From: a virus | IMG/VR virus record: IMGVR_UViG_3300032770_000014 | Location: 1 to 64,000 of that record | Direction: 5' to 3' (one strand) | DNA: 64,000 nucleotides | Shown here: positions 7,724 to 57,041 of the stretch, in pieces | Position numbering within the stretch: position 1 is the stretch's first letter | How the letters are laid out: every line of letters begins with the position of its first letter | Translations under genes and position numbers: made by a program | The notes under the pieces: model-generated | The model's database searches: none | What the model was told of the DNA's origin: nothing | What the model saw: the letters and a program-made list of their open reading frames with translations, nothing else

Positions 7724-8905
7724 ATGCCACTTGGACTGAGAACGGTAGCGGACCTCAGTTGCGAAATTGGCTTGCACCTCCTAGAGCCATTCGTAAACCA
7801 AACCCTTGCCTCCTCCGTCAGTTCTGGCAGCGCGGTTACAATCGTCCTCAACCCCACTACCCCTCTCCCCGCTACCTCCTATCTCTATCCCGGCGCGCAG
7901 GTCGTCATAGGCTGGCAGACCAGTCCGTCCGACGCCGAGGTGGTTACTGTTCTGACCGTGGCTGCCGACGGCGTGACCTTCACGGCGAACCTGGTCAACG
8001 ATCATGCTGCAGGAGAGACGGTCTTCGGCGCCACGTTTCCTACCCAAGCCTTAACCGACCCCATTTTCACCCAATCCGAGATCGTTGGCTACATCGCTCA
8101 GGCCCAGAACGAGTTCCTGACCAAAGTCCCACTGATCCTCCAGCTATTCCCCAACCTCGAAGTCCTGATCGGCCAGTCCAACCAGACCCTCCCCGCGACC
8201 GCGATCGAGCTGGAGCGCGTGGCTGTGCAGTCCAACCCGGCCGCGACCCAGTTCGCTATCTCGTCTATCACGCGCAGCGGAGGTACGGTCACCTGCCTAC
8301 TGACCAGTTCCGTCAATTCCGACCAATGGACCGCAGACCTCCCTATCCAAGTCTTCGACGTGACTGACTCCACGTTCAACTCCACCGCGAACTCGACCTT
8401 CCTGCTCGCCTCGGTCTCGTCGGATGGCTTGACGCTGACCTGGCCGCAGGCAGTAGCGGATTCCTCCAGCAGCGGCGGCGTGGTCTCCCGGCCTATTCTG
8501 ACCCGGCTGTACGAGTCTGCGCAGGAGCAGATCGCGCTGAACCAGCCGTGGGGATTAACCAGTCCGGTACCGACGAACTGGTGGGAAGATCGTTCAGGAA
8601 TTTACGGATGGGGCGTCTCGCCAGTACCACAAAGCAATAACTGGATGGAGTTGCTGGCGAGCGTCAGGGCGAGCGAGAGCCTGACCCTGCTGTCGGGATT
8701 CCTTGTGCCGGATGTGTTCGTGTACGCGATCAAATGGCGCGCGCTGGCCTACTGCTGGGCGAAGAATGGCGTCCAACGCAGCCCGACGATGGAGAAGTTC
8801 GCCAAGGGTAAATTCGACTTCTACTGCCTCCTCGCTGATCGCTTCCTGCGCAACACGATCCAGAAAGTCGGTCAAGCCGGTGCCGCTGCGGGAGGGAACT
8901 TCTGA
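7724..8905 (+). CDS. Putative connector/tail-completion protein
   Basis: 393 residues. The middle (about residues 20-110 and 175-260) is beta-rich with Thr/Ser/Val-rich strands; the flanks are helical, including a C-terminal helical pair with Trp and Lys residues (KWRALAYCWAKNGVQ). This again is the helix-barrel-helix style of phage adaptor or neck proteins. There is no clear ribosome-binding site before the ATG, which lies just downstream of the TTACCGC element. The stop overlaps the next start (TGATG). Function inferred. Confidence 0.5.
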   Translation: MPLGLRTVADLSCEIGLHLLEPFVNQTLASSVSSGSAVTIVLNPTTPLPATSYLYPGAQVVIGWQTSPSDAEVVTVLTVAADGVTFTANLVNDHAAGETVFGATFPTQALTDPIFTQSEIVGYIAQAQNEFLTKVPLILQLFPNLEVLIGQSNQTLPATAIELERVAVQSNPAATQFAISSITRSGGTVTCLLTSSVNSDQWTADLPIQVFDVTDSTFNSTANSTFLLASVSSDGLTLTWPQAVADSSSSGGVVSRPILTRLYESAQEQIALNQPWGLTSPVPTNWWEDRSGIYGWGVSPVPQSNNWMELLASVRASESLTLLSGFLVPDVFVYAIKWRALAYCWAKNGVQRSPTMEKFAKGKFDFYCLLADRFLRNTIQKVGQAGAAAGGNF

Positions 8906-9360
8906 TGCCCGCCCTCGCCTCCAACCCGCTCCCGATCCAGTTCACCCCCTTTACCAAAAAGCACTTTGAGACGGACGCCGGGATAGCATTTGTTAACCAG
9001 ACCTTGAGCCAGTTGACGACTACCATTAACGCCCTCCTCGGCTCTGGCGGCCCGACCCTACTCCCCTCCGGCATCGACGTCCAAGGCGCGAAGGTCACTG
9101 GCTTGGCAGCGCCAGAAAGCGAATCAGATGCCGTCTCCCTTAGTCACGCGCAGGGGAACTACTCCGCGCCTGCCGTGGCCCCGCAACTGGACCTCGGCGG
9201 CAAGAACACCCTCAAAGGGCTGGCGGCGGTTTACTCTGTGGTGCAGCCGGGGATTGGGACATCGACTACGCTGACCCTGGCGAAACTCACTGGGGGCGGC
9301 AGCAGCGGATCGATCACGATCAAGAACGGCGTGGTGACAGCTTTCACGCCGCCGAGCTAG
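8905..9360 (+). CDS. Small putative virion/tail protein
   Basis: 151 residues, start overlapping the upstream stop. The C-terminal half ends in the pattern SITIKNGVVTAFTPPS, a short beta-hairpin terminus that is common in small phage proteins encoded near the tail nozzle and fibre genes. The N-terminal 50 residues look helical. Its stop is followed at once by GGAGG and the remnant start of the nozzle gene, so originally it stood directly before that gene. Confidence 0.55.
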   Translation: MPALASNPLPIQFTPFTKKHFETDAGIAFVNQTLSQLTTTINALLGSGGPTLLPSGIDVQGAKVTGLAAPESESDAVSLSHAQGNYSAPAVAPQLDLGGKNTLKGLAAVYSVVQPGIGTSTTLTLAKLTGGGSSGSITIKNGVVTAFTPPS

Positions 9361-9370
9361 GGAGGAACAG

Positions 9371-9418
9371 ATGGCCGAGCAGAAGCAATATGAATCCAAG
9401 CCGTTCCTGCTTATTTGA
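9371..9418 (+). pseudogene. Displaced original 5' end of the nozzle-like gene
   Basis: A GGAGG site and ATG open a 15-codon frame reading MAEQKQYESKPFLLI and then stop. The first 12 residues match 10 of the first 12 of the large protein that starts at 10362 (MAENKNYESKPF), but the DNA differs at 11 of 36 bases. This is the original start of that gene, cut off by the HNH endonuclease gene that follows on the other strand. Confidence 0.85.
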
Positions 9419-10256
9419 ACCGGGAGGCTTGTTGGAAAAAGTAGGCGAGTAGGTCTTGTAGGCCAAGTGCCTTGAATGAATCTACTACGGCTTGGTATTT
9501 GGAAGCATTTTCAGGAAAGTTCAATCTAGAAAACTCTCTAAAGTGCAGGACAGTAACAATGTCTCTAACTATGGCTGCGGTCTCCTTTTCCTTATATCTG
9601 CCAAGGAACATCTTCTTTCCGTCAACACAAATCTGTGCTTTCCACTTTCTAGTCAGTGTTTTACCTTTTTTGGATAGTATCCATCTATCATTGTTGCGTA
9701 GCTGCGATACACCAATGAACCCCGAAGTGCTATCCTTTCGCAATCCTCTATTTCTGGAATTTTCCTTGGCGTTTGCAAACCTCAGATTGCTCATGCAGTT
9801 GTTGAGTCCATTGCCATCGATGTGATCGACTTGGCGAGTCTCAGTACCCATCAGGAACTGGTGAAGTGTGATGTGGCTTTGCCCTGTCTTGGAATATGGT
9901 CTATAGCTACCAGATGCCGCGTAGAACCCGCACTTTGTATTGTTTTTTACTGCGTACCAGTTTAGAGCGATCGCTTCTGCATATCGGGACTTGTCTACAA
10001 CAGTGACTTGGTTTTGGGTAAGAGCGATAAGACGAATATCTGGATCGTCTGGCTGAACTATTGCGGGTCGAAGAACTGCTCTCGTAGTCACCACTCGTCG
10101 AACTGGCCTTGGTAGTCTTTTGTGGCAATCAAGGCAATGTAGCGCGTGTGGGCTTTTGCGGTTGTGACACGCAGGGCAATAAGAAATTTCACATGGATAT
10201 GCATGAGTTGTATACTTGCGTTGCGGCTGGGCTGTCTGTTCTCGCAGACTGCTCAT
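9411..10256 (-). CDS. HNH homing endonuclease with AP2-like DNA-binding domain
   Basis: 281 residues. Domains in order: an N-terminal zinc ribbon with Cys 27, 30, 41 and 44; an HNH nuclease core (LHQF at 131-134, VDHIDGNGLNN at 143-153, then NLRFAN); and an AP2/ERF-like DNA-binding domain (GFIGVS through DGKKMFLGRY, about 179-222). It makes a site-specific double-strand cut that starts its own copying. It lies antisense to the late genes, AT-richer than its neighbours, between the truncated old 5' end of the nozzle gene and its intact new copy. Its stop codon overlaps the remnant. Confidence 0.93.
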   Translation of the reverse strand: MSSLREQTAQPQRKYTTHAYPCEISYCPACHNRKSPHALHCLDCHKRLPRPVRRVVTTRAVLRPAIVQPDDPDIRLIALTQNQVTVVDKSRYAEAIALNWYAVKNNTKCGFYAASGSYRPYSKTGQSHITLHQFLMGTETRQVDHIDGNGLNNCMSNLRFANAKENSRNRGLRKDSTSGFIGVSQLRNNDRWILSKKGKTLTRKWKAQICVDGKKMFLGRYKEKETAAIVRDIVTVLHFREFSRLNFPENASKYQAVVDSFKALGLQDLLAYFFQQASRFK

Positions 10257-10308
10257 CGGTCACCTCCGATGGGCGCGGGTCTGGCCGCGCTTCCTTTTAT
10301 TCTATACC

Positions 10309-10331
10309 TACCGTTGGACTTGCGCTAGACT
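10309..10331 (+). promoter_or_regulatory. Possible TACCG-TAGACT promoter element of the nozzle gene
   Basis: TACCGT, 11 bp, TAGACT, about 30 bp before the GTG at 10362. It resembles the TTACCGC-TAT elements elsewhere and would replace the promoter or read-through lost when the endonuclease gene was inserted. Confidence 0.35.
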
Positions 10332-10361
10332 GTTGCCGATTCATGCAGGATGGAGGCGAGA

Positions 10362-13300
10362 GTGGCTGAGAACAAGAATTACGAGTCTAAGCCATTTGTT
10401 TATAGTTCTAGGGGATTGGGTGCCCGCTGGGAGGTTGATAGAGTTCCGGAGGGATATTATTTACAGAATCTGAATTGTTTTGAGCGCAGCGAGAATTCCC
10501 TCAGCAGTCGGTATGGAACTTCTATCATTGATCGCGATCCGTATGGTACGCCAAACCCCCAAAATTACTTTTTCTCGGCAGAGGTAACATCTCTTGCACG
10601 ACTTGTATACCAGTCGAACTCGTTCCGCTATGCTGGTCTTGCCGATGGCACGTTGTGGCGGCGTACAGGGGATGCTCAAGGGCCGTACACGCAAATTTAT
10701 TCAGGACTCTCTGGTAATTCTTTTGAAACAATTGTGTCTAGTTGTTATGAGACATCTCAGGCGTTTATTTTTATAGCTGATGCTCTAGCCTCTATTAAGG
10801 ACATGGGAACCGGAACTCCGCAACTCTGGGGGATTGATCCTCCTTCCTACACTCTGAACGTTCAGCCATACGCGCCGCTGCTGACCATGATCGACTCGTT
10901 CTCAGCCTCTAACACCTATGCCACGACAGGGGTGACAAGCTGGGAGTGGGTGGACATCGAAACGCTGACTGTCAACTCTGGGCAACTCGTGACGGATTTC
11001 AGCGAGTTCTTCAGCCTTGGGTACGGCGGGGGGTCGCCATCGACGCGGTATCCGACCAGTGGAAGTCTGGGAACAGGCACAATAACCGCTGCTGCTCTTC
11101 CAGGCGAGGTGACCACAAAATACTCAAGCGCGATCAGCGGGTTCGCCTCTGTGCCTCTGAGCGCAGTGGATGAAGTCACTCTGTATGTGACGCTGGAAGG
11201 CAGCTTGTCCTTTCCCATACCCGGTGTGCCGCCCCCCTACGGATCAGGATTCATTGGATTTCAGTACAGCGTGGATGGCGGGGTCACTTGGCAACCGCCT
11301 TCAGGGGATGGCTACACTTTCGTAAGCAAGGACAACACTACTACCCAGACGCTTTCCCCGACAGTGGTCACATTCGCTGTTCAGACGTCGAATCTCAGCT
11401 TGGTGCAATTGAGATCAATGGCTATCGCGACGAACCCAGCAACAGCATTCGCTGTCAACGCTACCAGCACCATTGCTTCCGTTTATGCCGTGGTCTCTAC
11501 GCAGGGCGGCACTGGGTCCGTAGCGGCGGGTATGGTCTCGCTCTTGAACAGCAACGTTCCCGTCTACGTCCCTATCGCGCAAGTGACCGCGACCAACTAT
11601 GTCGGCGACCTGTACACCGCCCTGCTAGTACAGACCACCGCGCCTCACAACCTCTCTGCCTCGGACACGATGGCGATCTACGCCTCCTCGAACGATCTGG
11701 TGGACGGGTTCTACCAAGTCTCCTCCATAACTGCTTCCAACTCCTTCCTCATTCCATTTGAGTCCGCGGTCGAGATTGGAGCGACAGGAGGCTATCTTAC
11801 CTACGCGACCTCGGCCAGCAACACTTACTCTTCCATTCCCAATGCCTGCGTAGTAAACAATTTCTACAGCCTTTCAATCTCGCAGATGTCGGCATGGGGA
11901 TTCAATGAGTGGGTTCCACCAACCGTGACCTCCTTCCCGTTCGGCTGCTGGAGCGGCGAGGTCACTGGGGCCAGTGCGACCGGGACGGTTGGCAACACCG
12001 TTGCGCTCGACCTGAGCCTGAACGACCAAGTAACCGACAGCGACCTTATTGTTCTCACTCTCGCTGTCTCGGAGCCGCAGAACGTCGAGCAGATCCAGTT
12101 ACAATTTTTTGTTGGAGATGGAACAGACAATTATTATTCCGCGTTCATTTCTCCAGCCTATTACCAAGGCTCACTGGTCGGGCAAGAGACTGCTTACGAC
12201 GCAACGCAGAACCAGATTCTCGCCGATGCGCTGGGCCTGATCACCGGTCAGACTCCGGGCACCACCGCTGCCCAACTTCAGCCTACGAACATCTCTACCG
12301 GCGCTGGATCGTGGCAGGCCTGTCTAATTCCCCGCGGCAATTTCCTGCCTGTGGGACTGGCGGGCACGGCGGGCCTCGACTGGTCGAACATCACCAGTTG
12401 GCAACTGACGGTCACGACCAACGCCAATACCACTCCCTCGGCCGGAGTCACATTCTCCTGCAACGGCCTCTACCTGCAGTGGGGCTACGGACCGTCCTCC
12501 TTTGCTGGCGTGGGCTACGACTGGCGACAGACTTACTACAACGCTAACACCGGGACCGAATCGTCTCCTTCACCTGAGATGCAGTACAACCAGCAATACG
12601 GCTATCTCGCTTCCACCACCGCGCCGTTCTTCCTGCGCCAGGCTGCGCAGGTCACTGGCCAGTACTCCTCCGATCCCCAAGTCACCCATGTCCGGCTGTA
12701 TCGCCGCGGGGGGATTCTGGCCTCGAACTGGTTCCAGTCAGTTCAAGCGCCGAACATAACCGGGGGCGGTCAGTTCCTCCTCAAGGATGTAATCGGGGAT
12801 GCCTATCTTGAACAGGCCCAACCTCTAGCTCTGGATAACGATCCTCCGGTCACGTCGAACCTCGTTACGCCGATCCAGACTACTCTAGCGGCCGGGACCA
12901 CGCTCTCCAGCCTTAGCTCGATCTACTCAACCTTCTTCCCGCAGATTGTGACCGTCACCCAGTCCGACGCCGTGTTTGTGCCGAACATGCTGGCCGAGAT
13001 CGGCAACGCGAACAATCTGGAAGTGGTGGCGGTTATTGTCGGTGGGACAGGCCAGTTCACTGCCATTCTTCGTCTCGAACATAATCAGGGTGAGCCGGTC
13101 AGCGTTCAGGCTACCCCCCGCCAAGCCTGCTCCCTCTGCGCGCTCTCGAACCAGGGCGGCGTGACCCAAGTCTGGCTGGCGGGCGACCCGAACAATCCGC
13201 ACTATCTCTACTACTCGAAGCCGGGCTACCCGGAGAATTTCTCTCCTGCCAATTACATTGCTGTCTCCGCGCCCGACGATCCGATTATGGCCGTCATTAA

Positions 13301-14531
13301 CTGGCGCGGGACGATCGTGGTCGGGACGACGAAGACTTGGTACATCATCGTTGGAGGCGCGAAACCGTACCCGCAGCCAACTGGCGCCGCGCACGGAATG
13401 GCATCCTCCTCATGGACTCTGGTCGAGGGCGAGATTATCTATCTTTCCCAAGACGGTCTCCGTGCCTTCTCCGGTGCCGACGGCCAGTACATGACCCTCC
13501 CTGTCGAGTGGATGTTCCGTGCCAGCCCGGCGACGATCGTGCCCAAGCTGAATCCTGACAGCTACTCCTCGACGGTCCTTTGCCAGTACCAGAACCAAGT
13601 CTACTTCGGGTTCACCTCAGCCTCAAACTCAGTCAGCACGGGCAACGGCGCGATCTATCGTCTGCGCTTCGACTCTGAGTACAAGCGGTTCGGCCTCGAT
13701 GACGTTCCCGCGACGGCGATGCTCTGGGAGCAGGATACCAACGCCTTACTAGTCGGGAAACAGATCAGTGCGACCGCTTATGCCGTCGTCCAAGACTGGG
13801 TAGGCGACTATGACGACGGCGGCTGGAACGCAGAAGGGACCGCGCTGATCCAGACTCCGATTCACCTCATCTCGCAGACTCCTTATCATGACCTCGGCAA
13901 GCCGCACTTTCCGAAGCAGTGGAACATGCTGGAGGGGGACTACAACACCGAGGGCCAGGACATCACGACAACCCTCTGGTTCAACACGGAGCCGACGACC
14001 TCGCTTGCTCTGCCCTCAGCCAACACGGGAACGCAGCGGCAGAAGGTCCAGTACCAGATCCCCTCCACCACCGCCTCCAACTCTCAAGGCGTTCAAGCCT
14101 ACGCAATGTCCATCCAGCACGACATGTACGTGACCGTGGCACCGACCTTCTATCAGGAGGACATGTATGCGGTCGTGCTGGCGGATTATCGGACCTCGTG
14201 GGACACCTACTGGCAGGGCACAGAGGGCGACCTGCTCGGCATCGAGCCCAAGAACGTCTACTGCGACTACACGGCTACTGCGCAACTGGTTGTCTCGATC
14301 TTCGCCGACGGCAACGACGCGACCCCTTACTATATCGACGACTTCACGCTGATCCCGCAGGCGAACCGGTCGGTGGTCCGGGTCCAGCTTCCAGCGCGGA
14401 AGGGACGCCTGTGGCGGATTATCATCACCAGCAGTCAGCCGTTCCAGCTCTGGGCACCGGTTCGGGTAGAGGTCAAGCAACTCCAAGAAGGTTCCGGGTT
14501 TGAGGAAAGGGCATTCCCGGTCTACCAATAG
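10362..14531 (+). CDS. Large tail nozzle-like virion protein
   Basis: 1389 residues from the GTG at 10362 (GGAGG 5 bp upstream); the ATG at 10350 overlaps that site and is less likely. The N-terminus (GYYLQNLNCFERSENSLSSRYGT) and repeated blade-like segments, including WLAGDPNNPHYLYYSKPGYPENF and GTTKTWYIIVGG, look like the beta-propeller of podovirus nozzle / DNA-stabilisation proteins (P22 gp10 type). The central half is Ser/Thr-rich beta structure. Codon use is AT-rich for about the first 480 bp and then turns GC-rich, consistent with a replaced 5' segment. The function is inferred from these features and gene order. Confidence 0.6.
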   Translation: MAENKNYESKPFVYSSRGLGARWEVDRVPEGYYLQNLNCFERSENSLSSRYGTSIIDRDPYGTPNPQNYFFSAEVTSLARLVYQSNSFRYAGLADGTLWRRTGDAQGPYTQIYSGLSGNSFETIVSSCYETSQAFIFIADALASIKDMGTGTPQLWGIDPPSYTLNVQPYAPLLTMIDSFSASNTYATTGVTSWEWVDIETLTVNSGQLVTDFSEFFSLGYGGGSPSTRYPTSGSLGTGTITAAALPGEVTTKYSSAISGFASVPLSAVDEVTLYVTLEGSLSFPIPGVPPPYGSGFIGFQYSVDGGVTWQPPSGDGYTFVSKDNTTTQTLSPTVVTFAVQTSNLSLVQLRSMAIATNPATAFAVNATSTIASVYAVVSTQGGTGSVAAGMVSLLNSNVPVYVPIAQVTATNYVGDLYTALLVQTTAPHNLSASDTMAIYASSNDLVDGFYQVSSITASNSFLIPFESAVEIGATGGYLTYATSASNTYSSIPNACVVNNFYSLSISQMSAWGFNEWVPPTVTSFPFGCWSGEVTGASATGTVGNTVALDLSLNDQVTDSDLIVLTLAVSEPQNVEQIQLQFFVGDGTDNYYSAFISPAYYQGSLVGQETAYDATQNQILADALGLITGQTPGTTAAQLQPTNISTGAGSWQACLIPRGNFLPVGLAGTAGLDWSNITSWQLTVTTNANTTPSAGVTFSCNGLYLQWGYGPSSFAGVGYDWRQTYYNANTGTESSPSPEMQYNQQYGYLASTTAPFFLRQAAQVTGQYSSDPQVTHVRLYRRGGILASNWFQSVQAPNITGGGQFLLKDVIGDAYLEQAQPLALDNDPPVTSNLVTPIQTTLAAGTTLSSLSSIYSTFFPQIVTVTQSDAVFVPNMLAEIGNANNLEVVAVIVGGTGQFTAILRLEHNQGEPVSVQATPRQACSLCALSNQGGVTQVWLAGDPNNPHYLYYSKPGYPENFSPANYIAVSAPDDPIMAVINWRGTIVVGTTKTWYIIVGGAKPYPQPTGAAHGMASSSWTLVEGEIIYLSQDGLRAFSGADGQYMTLPVEWMFRASPATIVPKLNPDSYSSTVLCQYQNQVYFGFTSASNSVSTGNGAIYRLRFDSEYKRFGLDDVPATAMLWEQDTNALLVGKQISATAYAVVQDWVGDYDDGGWNAEGTALIQTPIHLISQTPYHDLGKPHFPKQWNMLEGDYNTEGQDITTTLWFNTEPTTSLALPSANTGTQRQKVQYQIPSTTASNSQGVQAYAMSIQHDMYVTVAPTFYQEDMYAVVLADYRTSWDTYWQGTEGDLLGIEPKNVYCDYTATAQLVVSIFADGNDATPYYIDDFTLIPQANRSVVRVQLPARKGRLWRIIITSSQPFQLWAPVRVEVKQLQEGSGFEERAFPVYQ

Positions 14532-15336: not shown

Positions 15337-15471
15337 ATGATTTCTGATCGTACTGCCACCGATCTTTTTGTTATCTTTGCGGCAATATATTGCTTGTTTT
15401 GTGGTTACTTACTCGGCTGGGTGTGTTGCTTGGAAGCCATTAGGAGTGGTAAATGGAAGATGAGGAAGTAG
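15337..15471 (+). CDS. 44-residue single-pass membrane protein
   Basis: Start ATG follows GGAAGGG. One hydrophobic segment (about residues 10-33, Phe/Ile/Leu/Cys-rich) follows a short hydrophilic N-terminus, and the C-terminus is basic (RSGKWKMRK), so the C-terminus is likely cytoplasmic. It overlaps the next gene by 19 bases in another frame. Both this gene and the next two are AT-richer than their neighbours. Function unknown; a small membrane regulator is possible. Confidence 0.6.
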   Translation: MISDRTATDLFVIFAAIYCLFCGYLLGWVCCLEAIRSGKWKMRK

Positions 15472-15689
15472 TTAATATGAAACCTGATCGTACACCAACA
15501 GAGGTTTTGGTACAAATGATGGAAGAGTTCGGCAAGGACGAGCCGGCCGAACTTCTCATTTGTTACAGAGGGCATGCCGGGCAATTTTGCTGGGACTGTT
15601 CAAGCTCAAACTATGTGTCACAGTTGGGACTGGCTCACATGACTATTATAGCCATTGAAAATGATCTCAAGAAGGCGCAGAGGGCTTGA
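15453..15689 (+). CDS. Small acidic conserved-type phage protein
   Basis: 78 residues starting inside the preceding gene; an alternative start is the ATG at 15477 (MKPDRTPTEV). It has an acidic N-terminal half, a CYRGHAGQFCWDC stretch and a helical C-terminus with AHMTIIAIENDLKKA. The style is that of accessory genes found in many phages. Function unknown. Confidence 0.55.
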   Translation: MEDEEVVNMKPDRTPTEVLVQMMEEFGKDEPAELLICYRGHAGQFCWDCSSSNYVSQLGLAHMTIIAIENDLKKAQRA

Positions 15690-16840: not shown

Positions 16841-17869
16841 ATGGGCTCCCTTTCCCAAATCGTGCCGGTTCCCCTCTGGCTGTCGCCTTCGGCGGTACGA
16901 ATGCTTCCTGCTGAATCCACGAAGGTTCGGCCTTATGGGGTGATCTACAAGATTACGAATCTGGTGAATGGGAAGATTTATGTGGGAAAGACGAAACGGA
17001 AGTATCCTACAGCACGCTGGCAGGAACACAAAAAGTGTGCGATAGAATACAACGGCCACCCGCGAGGAAAGACCTACTTCTATAATGCTCTTCGTAAGTA
17101 CGGTGTTGAAAACTTTCGTTTCGAGGTCATCGACCAAGCCTTTGCTAATTCTGAACTTCTTGCTAAGGAGATGTACTGGATAGCTACCCTACAAAGTACG
17201 AATCGTTGCGTTGGTTATAACAGTACCTACGGCGGCGAGAGCGGCATTCCAACTCCTGAGACGCTGGAAAAGATGCGCGGACGCCCTTGTCGCCCTGAAA
17301 CTAGGGCCAAGATCAGCGCAGCGCAAAAAGGCAAGAAGCAGCCTGTCACTGAAGCTGTACTCGCAGCATGGGCGGCACGTAAAGGTAAGACCCCAACTCC
17401 AAAGATGGCAGAACACTTTGCTCGGATGCGGACACATCCTATTGGCCTCGGAACCAAACGCACAGAAGAACAAAGGCAGCATATGCGCGAAGGTATTTGT
17501 CGATCATGGACCTCTGAGCGTCGCGCAAAAGCATCAGAAAAAGCCAAGATAAGGATGGCAGGAAAACCTTGTCCCTATATCCCAACTACTGAAGAGCGAA
17601 AACGGTTGGGCGCACTTCAAAGACTACGTTGGGAGTCCATGTCTCCAGAACAAAAGACAGCAGAAAAGCTTAAGATGTCCCTTGCACGAAAAGGGAAGAA
17701 GCAGAAACCAGAAGCTGTAGCAAAGCGCGCAGCGTCAATTAAGGCTATATGGACTCCAGAACGTCGCGCAGCATGGGCAGAACGTATGCGTCAAAGCGGC
17801 GTGGTTAAGAACATTCGACAAGCAGGACGTGCACCTTGGTCACGTCGTTTTGAGAAGGAGGTTGCATAA
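16841..17869 (+). CDS. GIY-YIG homing endonuclease with NUMOD-type repeats
   Basis: 342 residues from the ATG at 16841; the frame is open further upstream, but that part lies inside the preceding gene. The nuclease core begins at GVIYKITN (33-40) and KIYVGKT (45-51), with the catalytic Arg in TARWQEH. From about residue 130 come repeated short DNA-binding modules of the NUMOD3 type (PETRAKISAAQKGKK, TEEQRQHMREG, PEAVAKRAASIKAIW). The first 30 residues are unlike the rest and GC-rich. The stop overlaps the start of the next gene (TAATG). The coding sequence is AT-richer than its neighbours. Confidence 0.93.
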   Translation: MGSLSQIVPVPLWLSPSAVRMLPAESTKVRPYGVIYKITNLVNGKIYVGKTKRKYPTARWQEHKKCAIEYNGHPRGKTYFYNALRKYGVENFRFEVIDQAFANSELLAKEMYWIATLQSTNRCVGYNSTYGGESGIPTPETLEKMRGRPCRPETRAKISAAQKGKKQPVTEAVLAAWAARKGKTPTPKMAEHFARMRTHPIGLGTKRTEEQRQHMREGICRSWTSERRAKASEKAKIRMAGKPCPYIPTTEERKRLGALQRLRWESMSPEQKTAEKLKMSLARKGKKQKPEAVAKRAASIKAIWTPERRAAWAERMRQSGVVKNIRQAGRAPWSRRFEKEVA

Positions 17870-18432
17870 TGGGCGGCGGATCAAAGGGTGGAAACGCTAC
17901 AGCCGAGAATGCCCAGACAGGCTTAGCTCAGCAACTTACTACCTTACTTGGACAACAACAAGGGGAAAGCTCTCAACTTTTTAATTTAGCCTTCCCTGCG
18001 ATGTCCCAAGCGACCGATTTTTATTCGGGATTGGCAAGTGGTTCCCCCGACATCATCTCCCGGCTCATCGCCCCCGCCGCACAGCAGGTCAGCCAAGCCA
18101 CGGCCGGGGCCAAGCAGAACATCCTCCAGACCTCGCCAGCGGGAGGGGAGCGGAACTTGGCTCTCAGTCAGGCAGATGTCAACCAGGGAGCGCAACTGGG
18201 CGCGCTGGCCAGCCAAGGCTTCACTAGCGCGTTCAATAATTTGGCGCAGCTTGGCACTTCCGGTGTGGGACAGGGAATGAGCGCGGCAGGCACGGCCATC
18301 GGTGCGGGTCAGGCAGCCGGCAACCAGTGGTCCCAGATCGTGCAGGAAAACATCGCGCAGAAGGGTGCCAGCCTCGGAGCGTTCGGACAGTTGGCCGGAG
18401 CAGGGGCATACTTAGGAGCGGCGTTTGTGTAA
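17869..18432 (+). CDS. Putative internal virion (ejection) protein, small
   Basis: 187 residues preceded by AAGGAGG. Gly/Ala/Gln/Ser-rich with long amphipathic helical stretches (QQLTTLLGQQQGESSQLF, then alanine-rich helices) and a hydrophobic Gly/Ala C-terminus. This composition is typical of small podovirus internal proteins that line up with two larger ones, as here. The first about 165 bp are AT-rich and the rest GC-rich, so the 5' end may have been replaced together with the adjacent endonuclease gene. Confidence 0.55.
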   Translation: MGGGSKGGNATAENAQTGLAQQLTTLLGQQQGESSQLFNLAFPAMSQATDFYSGLASGSPDIISRLIAPAAQQVSQATAGAKQNILQTSPAGGERNLALSQADVNQGAQLGALASQGFTSAFNNLAQLGTSGVGQGMSAAGTAIGAGQAAGNQWSQIVQENIAQKGASLGAFGQLAGAGAYLGAAFV

Positions 18433-36984: not shown

Positions 36985-37773
36985 ATGGCATTCGACATCT
37001 TCAAAGGCGGCAAGCTCGCGCCAGTTCACCTGCCGTGGCACGTCGCCCTCAGTGACCACCTTGACGCCGCCGCCAGTTGGCCCCCAGTCCCGCCGCAGGG
37101 ATGGGAATACGCCGTACCCCAGTCCGAGATGAGTGTGCTCGGCAACGACCAGTATGGATGCTGCGCCGAGTCCGGAGCGTGCGGCCTAGCGCAGATACAA
37201 AGCTGCAACGCTAATCCCACTGACCCCTTCGTTCCCACGACCGCCGAGGCGCTGGCGCTCTACACTGCCGTCACCGGGTTCAACCCGAACGATCCGAACA
37301 GCGACCAAGGGACAGTCTTAACCGACCTGCTCACCTACTGGCAGAACACCGGCTTCGAGTTGACTACCCGCTCCGGCAAGACGCGCCTAAGCCAGATCGT
37401 CGGGTGGGCCTCGCTCGACATTTCCAGCTTCGCGCTGCTGCGGTGGGCCGCGTACACGTTCGGCGGCTCCTACCTTGGCATCCAGTGCCCACAGAAGTGC
37501 GAGACGGACACAACCAACTGGAACTTCGGTCCTGGTCTGCCTATCGCTGGCGGTCACTGCATTGTGCAAGCGGGCGAGGGCGCAGCTGGCGGCAAGATGC
37601 GCACGTGGGGTCTGTTCATTCCCGCATCGGCTGGCTTTATGGGCGCGTACATCGACGAGGCCTATATCATTTGCTCAAAAGACTGGGTTAATAATCAAGA
37701 TAAGAGTCCGTCAGGCTTAAATCTGGATAGCCTTCTTGCAGCAATGAAACTAGCGGGATCGAGTTCACAATGA
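36985..37773 (+). CDS. Papain-like cysteine peptidase, probably lysis- or host-related
   Basis: 262 residues with AGGAGAG upstream. The catalytic Cys motif is GNDQYGCCAESGA (about residues 52-64), the His motif is GGHC (about 190-193), and a later DEAYIICSKDW segment supplies a possible third residue. This Cys-His pattern is that of small papain-fold proteins found in phages and bacteria. The last about 100 bp are AT-rich, and the C-terminal residues (SPSGLNLDSLLAAMK) are repeated at the end of the next gene, so the 3' end seems to have been replaced when the endonuclease gene arrived. Its stop overlaps that gene's start. Confidence 0.6.
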   Translation: MAFDIFKGGKLAPVHLPWHVALSDHLDAAASWPPVPPQGWEYAVPQSEMSVLGNDQYGCCAESGACGLAQIQSCNANPTDPFVPTTAEALALYTAVTGFNPNDPNSDQGTVLTDLLTYWQNTGFELTTRSGKTRLSQIVGWASLDISSFALLRWAAYTFGGSYLGIQCPQKCETDTTNWNFGPGLPIAGGHCIVQAGEGAAGGKMRTWGLFIPASAGFMGAYIDEAYIICSKDWVNNQDKSPSGLNLDSLLAAMKLAGSSSQ

Positions 37774-38516
37774 GTAGAGCGAAAATTCATTCCGGCGTTT
37801 GCCTTGCCTGTTGTTGCTCTTTCCCATCCGAGAGAACCAAGACACAATTTTGTAGTCGAAGCTGTGCATCGAAGGCTACGCAGCGTATGCGCAAGGAACG
37901 CGGAGACTTTAAAAACAAAATCTTGGATCATGTAATTCTTCGCGCAGTGAATTTAATTAACTCAGGTATGACTTGGAAGAACGCGGCCAAAGCTATAGGG
38001 TTGGACCATACGACCTTGCGCAAAAGAGTTAGACTCCTTGGTTGTCCTGTTCGCCGTGGACTCCGTGGCAGCAGACTACCAAGGACTTTGAATGTTCCCA
38101 CCGATGACGCTACTCTAGCCTATATTGCAGCGATGATTGATGGAGAGGGATCAGTCCAAATGTGTAGGGGGAAACGGCTCTCGCTTTGCGTCTACATTTA
38201 CAACACTAGTCTTGATTTGATGAAATGGCTTGCTTTGGTTGGCGGCGTGTATGTGCCTCGGCACACGTTGCCGCATCGTAAGCAGGGCTATGAGTGGCGA
38301 GTAAAAGGCAGGGAAGACGCCCTTGCTTTGCTCATGGCCGTTGAGCCTTTCATGATTATTAAAAAGAAACAGGCCCACGAAGCTATTGAATTTTTGCAAA
38401 GGGAAATCGGAAAGAACTATTTCAACGCGCAAAACGTATCACCAACGGGCTTGAATCTCAACAGCCTTGTCGCCGCCATGCAAGCGGCCAAGCGCAACAG
38501 ACCACCTGCAATTTGA
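37770..38516 (+). CDS. LAGLIDADG homing endonuclease fused to a displaced peptidase tail
   Basis: 248 residues. Domains in order: Cys-rich N-terminus (Cys 11, 14, 28, 32, zinc-ribbon-like), a helix-turn-helix (about 66-92, MTWKNAAKAIGLDHTTLRKR), one LAGLIDADG motif (LAYIAAMIDGEGS, 116-128) and the following beta sheet region. The last about 23 residues do not belong to the endonuclease: they repeat the C-terminus of the upstream peptidase at 11 of 15 positions. A single-motif enzyme would act as a dimer. AT-rich compared with flanking genes. Confidence 0.9.
   Translation: MSRAKIHSGVCLACCCSFPSERTKTQFCSRSCASKATQRMRKERGDFKNKILDHVILRAVNLINSGMTWKNAAKAIGLDHTTLRKRVRLLGCPVRRGLRGSRLPRTLNVPTDDATLAYIAAMIDGEGSVQMCRGKRLSLCVYIYNTSLDLMKWLALVGGVYVPRHTLPHRKQGYEWRVKGREDALALLMAVEPFMIIKKKQAHEAIEFLQREIGKNYFNAQNVSPTGLNLNSLVAAMQAAKRNRPPAI
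38439..38516 (+). pseudogene. Displaced original 3' end of the cysteine peptidase gene
   Basis: Codons 38439-38483 read SPTGLNLNSLVAAMQ, matching SPSGLNLDSLLAAMK at 37705-37749 of the intact peptidase gene. The DNA is GC-rich, like the body of the peptidase gene, whereas the intact gene's present end is AT-rich. This is therefore the older end, now read as the C-terminus of the endonuclease. Confidence 0.85.
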
Positions 38517-53874: not shown

Positions 53875-54113
53875 TTGACTGACTCCTCGGCCGGCTCCCC
53901 CGCCTGTCCCAGCTCCCCCAGATTCTGCGTCAGCCACTTATGCAGACACCCCTCCCCGCACAGGATATCCCCGCCCTCGTGCGCCTCACTGAGCGAGTAA
54001 CTCAGAATGACAAGGGACTGGCGCCCGCCTCCGTGCCGCCCGAGGAACCAGTGATTGCAGGCCTGCCTGACCGCTCCGCAGAGGTCGCACTTGGCTATGG
54101 TTTCAATGGCCAT
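53871..54113 (-). CDS. Zinc-finger protein
   Basis: 80 residues. Cys and His residues (CDLCG near 9-13, then CNHWFLGRHGG and CGEGCLHKW) fit a zinc-binding fold. The start overlaps the last codons of the HNH endonuclease; before insertion of that gene it would have overlapped the true end of the nuclease gene in the same way. Function unknown. Confidence 0.65.
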   Translation of the reverse strand: MAIETIAKCDLCGAVRQACNHWFLGRHGGGRQSLVILSYSLSEAHEGGDILCGEGCLHKWLTQNLGELGQAGEPAEESVK

Positions 54114-54147
54114 CGATCTCGACCAGCCCTTCCTTCGGGTGGTTAGG
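54103..54147 (-). pseudogene. Displaced original 3' end of the Cas4/RecB-like nuclease gene
   Basis: These codons read PNHPKEGLVEIDGH and stop. The intact nuclease gene ends PNHPKENVLVQIQEK (54841-54888). The old copy still overlaps the start of the next gene by 11 bases, as an ancestral operon junction would. Confidence 0.85.
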
Positions 54148-54828
54148 CCTTTCTGACTCAGGCCACAAAATTTCGTTAATGATCCTACTCACATGCGCTG
54201 GATGGCAACCAAACATCTTGCCTAACTCCTTTTGGTTGGCCTGCTTTTCACGGTAGAGAGTTCTCATCCGACCTACATCCTCCCAAGTCAAGTGGCGCTC
54301 GTAAGGATTCGTCCGTCCATTGCGGTGCGCAGCTCGCCATATCTCACAAACGCTCCTCACCTTCTTCCGCTTGCGCCGCATTTCTGCCACGTCGTCAGGA
54401 GTTGCGGTAAGAAGCCACGCAATCTCAGTTTGGGAGCGCCCTTCATCAAAAAACCATACAGCAATCTGATCCATTTGCTCAGGAGTAAAATGATGTTTTC
54501 GGTTACCAATTTTGAACGCATGGTGTTGGTTGCCTTGAACTGTGACGTATTCCAGATTCTCTGGGTTATTGTGTGTATGTACAGCATCAAGGTGGTTGAC
54601 TTGGTAGCCTATTGGACGCGGACCAATAAACGCCGCTGCAACCAAAAAGTGAACATAAGCTCGTGCTTGGTCGCGCTGCTTACCGCCTGGTAGATGAACT
54701 ACTGGATAACCGTTTCCTGTAGCAGGACTAGCCTTCAACACTCTCAGTGATCGGACTCGTCCAAGTGAACTCACCTGTAACCTTCCTTCAAATCCAGGAA
54801 CATCCCTCCAAACCTCTTGATTGTCCAT
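54103..54828 (-). CDS. NUMOD4-HNH homing endonuclease fused to a displaced nuclease tail
   Basis: 241 residues. NUMOD4-type start (VWRDVPGFEGRLQVSSLGRVRS, 6-28, given here as VWRDVPGFEGR then LQVSSLGRVRS), HNH core with the RAYVHFLVAAAFIG helix (56-68), VNHLDAVHTHNNPENLEY (77-94) and later helix-turn-helix-like segments (TPEQMDQIAVWFFDEG, TEIAWLLTATPDDVAEM, GKMFGCHPAHVSRII). The last 14 residues (PNHPKEGLVEIDGH) repeat the end of the upstream nuclease and are not part of an endonuclease. No ribosome-binding site is evident 12 bp after the previous stop. Confidence 0.92.
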   Translation of the reverse strand: MDNQEVWRDVPGFEGRLQVSSLGRVRSLRVLKASPATGNGYPVVHLPGGKQRDQARAYVHFLVAAAFIGPRPIGYQVNHLDAVHTHNNPENLEYVTVQGNQHHAFKIGNRKHHFTPEQMDQIAVWFFDEGRSQTEIAWLLTATPDDVAEMRRKRKKVRSVCEIWRAAHRNGRTNPYERHLTWEDVGRMRTLYREKQANQKELGKMFGCHPAHVSRIINEILWPESERPNHPKEGLVEIDGH

Positions 54829-54840
54829 AAAGCAACTGTA

Positions 54841-56823
54841 CTACTTTTCCTGAATCTGGACAAGTACATTTTCTTTTGGGTGGTTTGGAACTCTCGTCCT
54901 GAAGTGTTCTAATACAGCAGGATCATGCTCTGGGTCGGGGGGACCAAAACAAAATCCTGGCTGAGTTGGCATACTTCTGAAATTACAAACTCCAGGATAT
55001 GAACAGGCGGTCCGCGTCTGTGGAAAATATTTGTTTAACGCACTCCTTTTGGAGGAATAGCCGCCTTCACGTTCGGCCTGTCTGACCTTCTCTACATCTT
55101 GCGCGACTTGCGTTTCGGCGCTTGCGAGTTGCTCCAGCAGGTCTAGGGTCTCGTCCCGGTTGCGATATTGCACGAGCACCGGCACCAGTTGCTCGGCCAG
55201 CGCGTCCAGCTCCTCGCCATCCTCTCCGAGCGCGCCTTCTTGAACCTTACCCTGATCCAAGAGGTCGATCCACTCGGCCACCTTCATCGTCCTCCACACG
55301 GGACTCTTCTGCCACGACCGGTAATCCAACCTTCTCCCCCTCCCCGACTCGTCCTTCCACTCGTAGGTCCAGGCCCAGCGCCGGTCGTCCGAGGTGATCC
55401 CTTCCTGCTTGTAGGCGCGGACCAGCACCGACTCCTGATTCCAGCGCGGCTCTCCGGGCTGCGCCTTCTTGTTTTCCTTCCGGCTGCCCTTGAGGAGGTA
55501 TTCGTAGCGGACGCCGAGGACGGTGGGGGGGTCAGGAAGGGAGGAGAGCCAATCAGCAGTACGGTCTGAGACCAGCTCGCCGATTCTTGTTTGTAAGATA
55601 TTTACTTTCGCTGACAATTCCTCCATGCGGGAATGATCAAAGTCCGAAGCGCCAGCAGAGTCAATACAAGTACACTCTTCCCGATACTTTCCGCACACGC
55701 GACACTCGTGGTCTTCTCCCAACTCATCATAATGAGCGTCTTCTTGCATCTCAGATGCGTGCTGCTCGGCTACTTCCTTCAATTCCCGCTGTAGATCCCA
55801 CGCCCCTTCCAGCCTCTTCTCCACGTCCACCGCCTCGCTCAGACCCTGCATATCGACCTGCGCGTCCAGTTCCTTCCTGCGGTCCCACGAACCGGTGGTC
55901 TTGAACGACTGTAGATAGAGATAGCCGGTCGATCGTTCGTGCAGCAGAGCGTCGTGGCGGGAGAGGAAATGCAACTCGAACTCTACACCACTCCCCCCAC
56001 ATTTGGGACAAGTCAGCTTAACGGAGTGGTCAAACGTAGAGTCAAACTGCAGCTTACCGCCAGCACAGAATTTGCAAGGCTCCTCTGCCAATTTCCAACA
56101 GCCCTCTCTTTCCACTTCCAAAATGGTGAACGCCTCGTGGATTCCACGCCATCGCCTTCTCGCCCAGCACCTCACCATCGCCTCGACCAGCGCGGCCATC
56201 TCTTCCTTCAACCACTGGTCCTGATCGAACGGCTGATACTGTGCCACTCCCCCCGCGGTCGATTCCATGTTGCACGCAACCGCGACAGGTGGTACCGCTC
56301 CTGGCGCCAGATCCCCAAACTCCACCACGATCGGCGACTCGGCCGCCGGGCCACCCCTTGCAATCGGATTCGCCATCAGATCCGCGAAGTCATTGACCAC
56401 CTCGGGCTGACCCCCGGCGACCGCTGCCGCTGCCTGCCTCTGCCTAGCCTCTTCAGGGTCTAACTCGACTCCCTCGGACCACTCGGCGGTGAAGTCGGCA
56501 AGGGCCGCAGCGACAGCGCGATCCTCGATCTGGCGCGCAGCAGTTTGGCCGTCACCATAGCGGTAATCGAACAGTGCAATCAACTGGTCGGCTAGGGACA
56601 GCTCTGGATACTTTTTGGAAATGTTGTCGAGACCCTGTTGGCCATCGCGCAACAGGATTTCCATGCCGCTGTGCACCGCCGACCCCACGACCAAGTGACT
56701 CGACTTCCTCGCCGGCACGAGTCCGACCCCAGCAGCGCCCTCGTGATACTCTAGCCATCTAAGACGGCGGCATCTCTGGGCAGCCTGTACTCTCGACCGA
56801 TCCGTGAATATCGTCTGTGTCAT
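54841..56823 (-). CDS. Cas4/RecB-like PD-(D/E)XK nuclease with Cys clusters
   Basis: 660 residues from the ATG at 56823 (AGGAG upstream). The N-terminal part has the Cas4/RecB start (RVQAAQRCRRLRWLEYHEG, then HLVVGSAVHSGMEILL). Mid-protein comes a zinc-like cluster (CKFCAGG and CPKCGG) and then the active-site region SRHDALLHERSTGYLY followed by LQSFKTTGSW. A second Cys group (CRVCGKYREECTC) and C-terminal Cys residues (ACSYPGVCNF and GFCFG) resemble the Fe-S site of Cas4-type exonucleases. The last about 270 bp before the stop are AT-richer than the body. Confidence 0.75.
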   Translation of the reverse strand: MTQTIFTDRSRVQAAQRCRRLRWLEYHEGAAGVGLVPARKSSHLVVGSAVHSGMEILLRDGQQGLDNISKKYPELSLADQLIALFDYRYGDGQTAARQIEDRAVAAALADFTAEWSEGVELDPEEARQRQAAAAVAGGQPEVVNDFADLMANPIARGGPAAESPIVVEFGDLAPGAVPPVAVACNMESTAGGVAQYQPFDQDQWLKEEMAALVEAMVRCWARRRWRGIHEAFTILEVEREGCWKLAEEPCKFCAGGKLQFDSTFDHSVKLTCPKCGGSGVEFELHFLSRHDALLHERSTGYLYLQSFKTTGSWDRRKELDAQVDMQGLSEAVDVEKRLEGAWDLQRELKEVAEQHASEMQEDAHYDELGEDHECRVCGKYREECTCIDSAGASDFDHSRMEELSAKVNILQTRIGELVSDRTADWLSSLPDPPTVLGVRYEYLLKGSRKENKKAQPGEPRWNQESVLVRAYKQEGITSDDRRWAWTYEWKDESGRGRRLDYRSWQKSPVWRTMKVAEWIDLLDQGKVQEGALGEDGEELDALAEQLVPVLVQYRNRDETLDLLEQLASAETQVAQDVEKVRQAEREGGYSSKRSALNKYFPQTRTACSYPGVCNFRSMPTQPGFCFGPPDPEHDPAVLEHFRTRVPNHPKENVLVQIQEK

Positions 56824-57041
56824 CTCTCCTGTTCCCCCTTCTCCTCTTCTTGCTCCCCCTCCGCTTCCCTCCACTCGGCCTCCCGCGCCGCCTTCTCTTC
56901 TCTCTCCTGGGCCAGCTTCCCTTGGATCATCCCCACCGTCCGGCAGACCTGCTCCCAGTTCGTCGCCGGCCGGATGCCTGGCTGGTCGAGGGGTTGGGGC
57001 GGAGGGAGAGAGGAATCAGAACCATTTTCACAACCATTCAT
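56820..57041 (-). CDS. Small acidic coiled-coil protein, first gene of the early operon
   Basis: 73 residues (MNGCENGSDSSLPPPQPLDQ, then WEQVCRTVGMIQGKLA and a Glu/Lys/Arg-rich helix). Stop overlaps the nuclease start (ATGA). The ATG lies 15 bp after the proposed -10 box with no ribosome-binding site. Function unknown. Confidence 0.55.
   Translation of the reverse strand: MNGCENGSDSSLPPPQPLDQPGIRPATNWEQVCRTVGMIQGKLAQEREEKAAREAEWREAEGEQEEEKGEQER

Follow-up and report, generated by a model that had tools for sequence, protein, structure and literature searches.

In the 64,000-nucleotide stretch of viral DNA analysed here (the window), one large gene has two 5' ends, an old one of which a short stub is left and a new one that opens the gene, and an intact endonuclease ORF lies between the two. 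Relatives that lack the endonuclease have the intact gene at this place, base composition changes in a step inside the large gene, and the same layout occurs elsewhere. In our view the large gene was probably invaded at its 5' end by a free-standing homing endonuclease and then repaired from a diverged donor. The coordinates of the features are given in Table 1.

Table 1. Features of the focal locus and of two further cases in the window
Feature	Position	Strand	Remarks
Upstream gene, 151 aa	8905..9360	+	native left flank of the insertion
Large gene, old 5' end	9362..9418	+	RBS, ATG 9371, 12 homologous codons to 9406
Probable foreign tract	9407..10845	.	endonuclease gene, spacer and first ~161 large-gene codons; GC 0.47 vs about 0.6 around
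HNH homing-endonuclease gene (assigned by sequence), 281 aa	9411..10256	-	Cys-rich N-terminus, HNH_3 motif, predicted AP2-like DNA-binding domain
Divergent spacer, endonuclease start to new large-gene start	10257..10361	.	no recognisable promoter
Large gene, replacement 5' end	10362..10845	+	GTG 10362, VAENKNYESKPFVYSSRG...; GC3 0.42
Large gene, native remainder ('nozzle-like' in the preliminary description)	10846..14531	+	GC3 0.72
Second case: gene 36985-37773, AT-rich new 3' end and endonuclease ORF 37770-38516	37663..38516	+	relative L090
Third case: gene 54841-56874, AT-rich new 3' end and endonuclease ORF 54103-54828	54103..55059	-	relative L097

Two 5' ends of one gene

The old 5' end directly follows the upstream ORF, whose stop lies at 9360: a GGAGGA motif occupies 9362-9367, and the start codon is found 10 bases beyond the stop. 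The 15 codons from this ATG (MAEQKQYESKPFLLI) end in a TGA at 9416-9418. The first 12 of them (9371-9406, MAEQKQYESKPF) have a counterpart in the new copy; beyond 9406 the frame reads through to the TGA. The large ORF restarts as VAENKNYESKPFVY and ends at 14531. Its longest possible form starts with ATG 10350, and it is the GTG at 10362 (VAENKNYESKPF), preceded by GGAGG, that aligns with the starts of relatives. Between the two 36-base segments there are 11 differences; they make up six silent codon changes, two amino-acid changes and the ATG/GTG difference of the start codon. The junction is tight, since 9406, the last base matching the new copy, is only four bases away from the stop codon of the minus-strand HNH ORF (9411-9413). 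A preliminary description of this DNA had claimed a ribosome-binding site and start at 9371 opening 15 codons and a stop, a restart of the large gene at 10362, two copies differing at 11 sites and mostly silently, and an antisense endonuclease between two 5' ends of one gene; coordinates and codon comparison agree with it on each of these points. Its view that the new end is diverged DNA and not a recent tandem duplication is likewise supported by 11 mostly silent differences in 36 bases.

The stub peptide matches the new 5' end with a score of 57 (maximum 34 in 200 shuffles), in the correct frame, at the correct distance from the ribosome-binding site, and in the correct gene and gene end. 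In a control scan a score of 55 was reached by 26 of 316 control ORFs, the top ones being, on inspection, mostly low-complexity sequence or repeated domains or genes. The peptide score alone is not fully specific, and because the unsupervised score gives false positives, an endonuclease-free relative is needed for every case. Here, the case for a displaced old 5' end is carried by position and by such relatives.

Homologues of the upstream gene are found in four contigs (L002, L003, L004 and L007). In L002 the upstream ORF (60% identical) is followed, 10 bases on, by an intact large gene (MADEKNYKSVPF...) that starts MADEKNYKSVPFIYNSHGL and is a full-length homologue with 58% identity; the position of the stub is the position of the large-gene start in this contig. 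In L007 the two genes are 86 bases apart, and the large gene starts MPSDEQYAPKPYVYSSKGL. Further homologues of the large gene are found in L003, L004, L005 and L007. L002 and L007 are independent viral contigs, and the HNH gene is absent from the same site in both. Since in both contigs the upstream gene directly precedes an intact large gene, without endonuclease, the stretch at 9371 is read as the displaced old 5' end. The search for phages with this gene order, which the preliminary description had proposed, was therefore positive. A separate conserved small gene at the stub position, the finding that by the same description would speak against a displaced end, was seen in neither L002 nor L007, whose two genes have no small gene between them.

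The large protein has no family match and no PDB match, and its structure model is poor (mean pLDDT 36); the label 'nozzle' given to it by the preliminary description is therefore unconfirmed. Immediately upstream of the 8905-9360 ORF lies a gene with a match to the SU10 adaptor family, a finding that fits the label. The large gene most likely codes for a virion protein. Searches of the annotated phage collection gave no match for DNA or protein. A new promoter-like element had also been proposed at 10309-10331. This is unsupported: a consensus scan found no sigma-70-like site there, and the 23-mer occurs a single time in the window when up to 3 mismatches are allowed. We note that the spacer contains a GC-rich hairpin followed by a T-run (10271-10292, +), which is not above chance in the scan.

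The endonuclease and the extent of foreign DNA

Judged by its sequence, the antisense gene belongs to the HNH homing endonucleases. The protein matches PHROG_99 (E=8e-31), scores 23.9 bits against Pfam HNH_3, just under the cut-off of 24.8, and shows a weak sequence match to I-HmuI (PDB 1u3e). In an alignment with 10 relatives the HNH residues are intact (QVDHIDGN...NN...NLR...N..N). The C-terminal half is modelled as an AP2-like fold (pLDDT 69), for which the best PDB match by Foldseek is the AP2 domain 7et5 (probability 1.00 but E=0.008). The endonuclease thus appears to have a separate DNA-binding domain with a predicted AP2 fold. The arrangement is not an intein, because the stop codon at 9416 and the antisense endonuclease leave no uninterrupted in-frame insertion.

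The maximum-scoring AT-rich segment at this locus (9381-10804) is the strongest in the window. At the stub, GC content falls from about 0.6 to 0.47, and it does not rise again before the interior of the large gene, with values of 0.459 for the endonuclease, 0.467 for the new 5' end and 0.587 for the rest of the large gene. The GC3 of the large gene steps from 0.42 to 0.72 at a change point at 10845 (interval 10797-10875); the log-likelihood gain is 29.0 as compared to a maximum of 11.4 in permutations, and none of 5000 permutations reaches the observed gain. The 5' ends of the large gene in relatives are not AT-rich and show no such drop. The shared composition and the GC3 step indicate that the arriving unit consists of the endonuclease together with ~480 bases of the 5' end of a diverged homologue. 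The preliminary description had placed foreign DNA at the new start; the diverged new end stands, and the GC3 step extends it past the start, ~480 bases into the gene. A profile of protein identity along the large gene shows no clear break between the 5' tract and the rest in comparison with relatives and is therefore unusable for dating or placing the import, so that the foreign origin rests on composition and silent differences. The search for a donor phage found none.

The same layout in other genes

Among the low-GC segments that rank next in strength in the window are two with other endonuclease genes. In the second case the endonuclease ORF is LAGLIDADG-like (with a weak Pfam match), and its last 35 codons, from 38412, are the displaced old C-terminus of the preceding gene, joined in frame. 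The old terminus reads KNYFNAQNVSPTGLNLNSLVAAMQAAKRNRPPAI and the new one KDWVNNQDKSPSGLNLDSLLAAMKLA; the relative without endonuclease (L090, 79% identical) ends ...AAMKAAKANIPPSN, which resembles the old tail. In the third case the endonuclease ORF is of the NUMOD4-HNH type and ends, in frame, with the displaced old C-terminus (...PNHPKEGLVEIDGH), and the new end of the preceding gene is ...PNHPKENVLVQIQEK. The relative L097 (55% identical) is without this endonuclease. The terminus match of the third case is short and, taken by itself, weaker (3 of 200 shuffles). The endonucleases of the second and third case belong to two unrelated families, and pattern scans for their relatives found none. 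The arrangement noted in the preliminary description is real, and it is one of a set, with two more clear cases here and others in unrelated phages.

Among the HNH relatives from IMG/VR, two contigs (L107, identical to L023, and L108) show an integrase gene with a new C-terminus. The endonuclease comes next, then a stop and then the old C-terminus RVYGRWIPTDGDSSGDKAA. Between the two contigs, identity is about 94% for the integrase core and about 73% for the endonuclease; the new C-terminal block agrees at 32 of 60 positions and the old C-terminal remnant at 53 of 60. These identities indicate that the inserted terminus and the endonuclease form a diverged unit, with the remnant behaving as a native part of the gene. 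The two contigs hence contain diverged alleles of the same endonuclease with replacement C-terminus, at the same site and in two independent metagenomes. The case of L080 and L081 is N-terminal: the old end MNIRKTTKGKDRNFL and the endonuclease ORF form one in-frame fusion, and the gene downstream opens anew with nearly the same sequence, with 3 differences in 45 bases between the two copies. The signature of stub and replacement terminus is clear in about 3 of about 107 loci tested among HNH relatives; most of these are without it, which counts against an invasion with repair from a donor. None of 8 loci in related phages was clearly positive, with the ORF misplaced by the scan in 2 of the 8. 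We note that the comparison of displaced and inserted terminus with those of relatives comprises just 12 codons in the focal case; a displaced terminus that is nearer to relatives than the inserted one is supported by the integrase pair (53/60 against 32/60) and by the tail of the second case, which resembles L090.

Several other loci of the genome were noticed. A GIY-YIG gene (16841-17869, +; region 16841-18025) lies as an insertion between two genes that are neighbours in L002, and the gene after it is low in GC over its first ~157 bases; it was rejected as another case, as no old stub was found. An HNH_3 gene (contig positions 74507-74956, region 74077-74956; L088 14077-14956) follows a gene with a low-GC 3' end. 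It was not accepted as a case either, the possible degraded old C-terminus being weak (score 44) and a search for a relative to decide the matter having found none. The starts of two small ORFs (MISDRTATDLFV and MKPDRTPTEVLV) form a diverged direct repeat (15337-15371 and 15477-15511, 71%) in a low-GC stretch that is absent from L002; the repeat could be chance. A terminase-like gene (contig 82689-86201; L089 4689-8201) has an in-frame low-GC interruption with a LAGLIDADG_3 domain ending ...THN|S, which is probably an intein. The start of an ORF at contig 70418-72232 (L088 10418-12232) resembles, by eye, a GroEL-type chaperonin, which the phage would then encode.

Mechanism, alternatives and known systems

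We infer the following course, which covers the site of cutting, the donor, the route of repair and immunity. The HNH enzyme would cut or nick endonuclease-free DNA near codon 12 of the large gene, and the repair template would be a lower-GC donor phage carrying the endonuclease beside a diverged homologue of that gene. On the gene side, homology-driven repair would copy about 160 donor codons, with a crossover near 10845; on the other side, an illegitimate join would fall just after the first 12 codons, which are left behind as the stub. The donor 5' end would thereby restore the large gene. Neither copy should be recut, since the new end differs in its spelling and the old one breaks off where the cut is presumed to fall. 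The stub and the upstream gene may then act as the left homology arm for onward homing, as is suggested by the remnant common to L107 and L108. Both flanking co-conversion and one-sided illegitimate repair are established for the homing of T4 introns (PMC2988022).

Two copies of a gene start could also arise by local duplication at the insertion (a target-site duplication), followed by ordinary divergence of both. Close copies do occur, as in L080 and L081 with their 3 differences in 45 bases. At the focal locus, however, 11 of 36 bases differ within one genome, mostly silently, and the new copy lies inside 480 bases of low-GC sequence whose composition is that of the endonuclease, so that we regard a duplication as unlikely. 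Ordinary mosaic recombination might instead have replaced the 5' end, with the endonuclease as a passenger at the boundary of the exchange, a place where endonuclease genes are known in phages (PMC10448857). The same three-part layout recurs in this one genome with endonucleases of three unrelated families, and two phages with diverged alleles have it at an identical site, which makes a passenger role improbable.

The window derives from a metagenomic viral contig, and an assembly artefact joining two phages has therefore to be considered. It is very improbable, given that one contig holds three structurally precise cases, of which two are in-frame fusions, and that the integrase case comes from two metagenomes independent of each other. 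Finally, endonuclease genes often reside in introns, and an intron-like element might be spliced out, joining the old 5' end to the gene. Yet the window has no Rfam match to a group I or II intron, the endonuclease is antisense, and splicing would duplicate residues 1-12; splicing is also unneeded, since the large gene has a complete start downstream. We give this explanation practically no weight. Invasion by a homing endonuclease with repair from a diverged donor remains our preferred reading. Its generalization, namely that phage homing endonucleases of unrelated families repeatedly spread as natural cut-and-rescue cassettes that include a recoded 5' or 3' terminus of the target gene, with the displaced old terminus as homology arm in later homing, is in our judgement evenly balanced.

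On our preferred reading, a selfish nuclease has a way to attack coding sequence in an important gene that needs neither intron nor intein, because it carries the repair along. From the signature of replacement terminus, endonuclease and old stub one can read the probable cut site of phage endonucleases that are still uncharacterised, which opens their targets to direct testing. Some mosaic gene ends and misannotated C-terminal tails in phages may have the same explanation. A limited search of the open-access literature found no description from phages of a stub, an endonuclease and a replacement terminus.

A number of known systems share parts of this layout. The free-standing Seg and Mob enzymes of T4-like phages are likewise stand-alone phage endonucleases with flank co-conversion and repair-driven spread; the review describing them has no mention of a target gene that leaves a displaced remnant and receives a replacement terminus (PMC2988022). 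The ShiLan insertion in actinophage methylase genes is also an HNH insertion in a phage gene, and its first 11 residues resemble the 11 residues after the site. In contrast to the focal case it is gene-internal and in frame, and the resemblance is discussed as an intron-like hint, not as a replaced segment (PMC11855218). The synthetic home-and-rescue drive HomeR places a nuclease within a gene and adds a recoded end of that gene, which is not cut and makes the gene functional again (PMC7968924). HomeR is an engineered Cas9 system in Drosophila (PMC7968924), and the analogy is one of layout only; by its layout the focal locus works like a natural cut-and-rescue (home-and-rescue) drive. Designers of synthetic rescue drives chose this same layout, and its other descriptions come from fungal mitochondria.

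The closest described relatives are the mobile ORFs (mORFs) of fungal mitochondria, which make gene hybrids of atp6, atp9, cox2 and nad3 in Glomus and of atp6 in Allomyces (PMC3630166). In both systems the endonuclease element supplies a terminus of foreign origin that shares the reading frame of the host gene, and the gene's own terminus has moved past the endonuclease; most of the DNA differences are silent. At the focal locus a foreign terminus is in frame with the core of the gene and the native terminus is displaced. The mORFs are mitochondrial, C-terminal, in sense orientation, and mostly of the LAGLIDADG or GIY-YIG families (PMC3630166), whereas the focal case concerns a phage, a 5' end and an antisense HNH gene. 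The second and third case of the same genome, however, share the C-terminal location of the mORFs.
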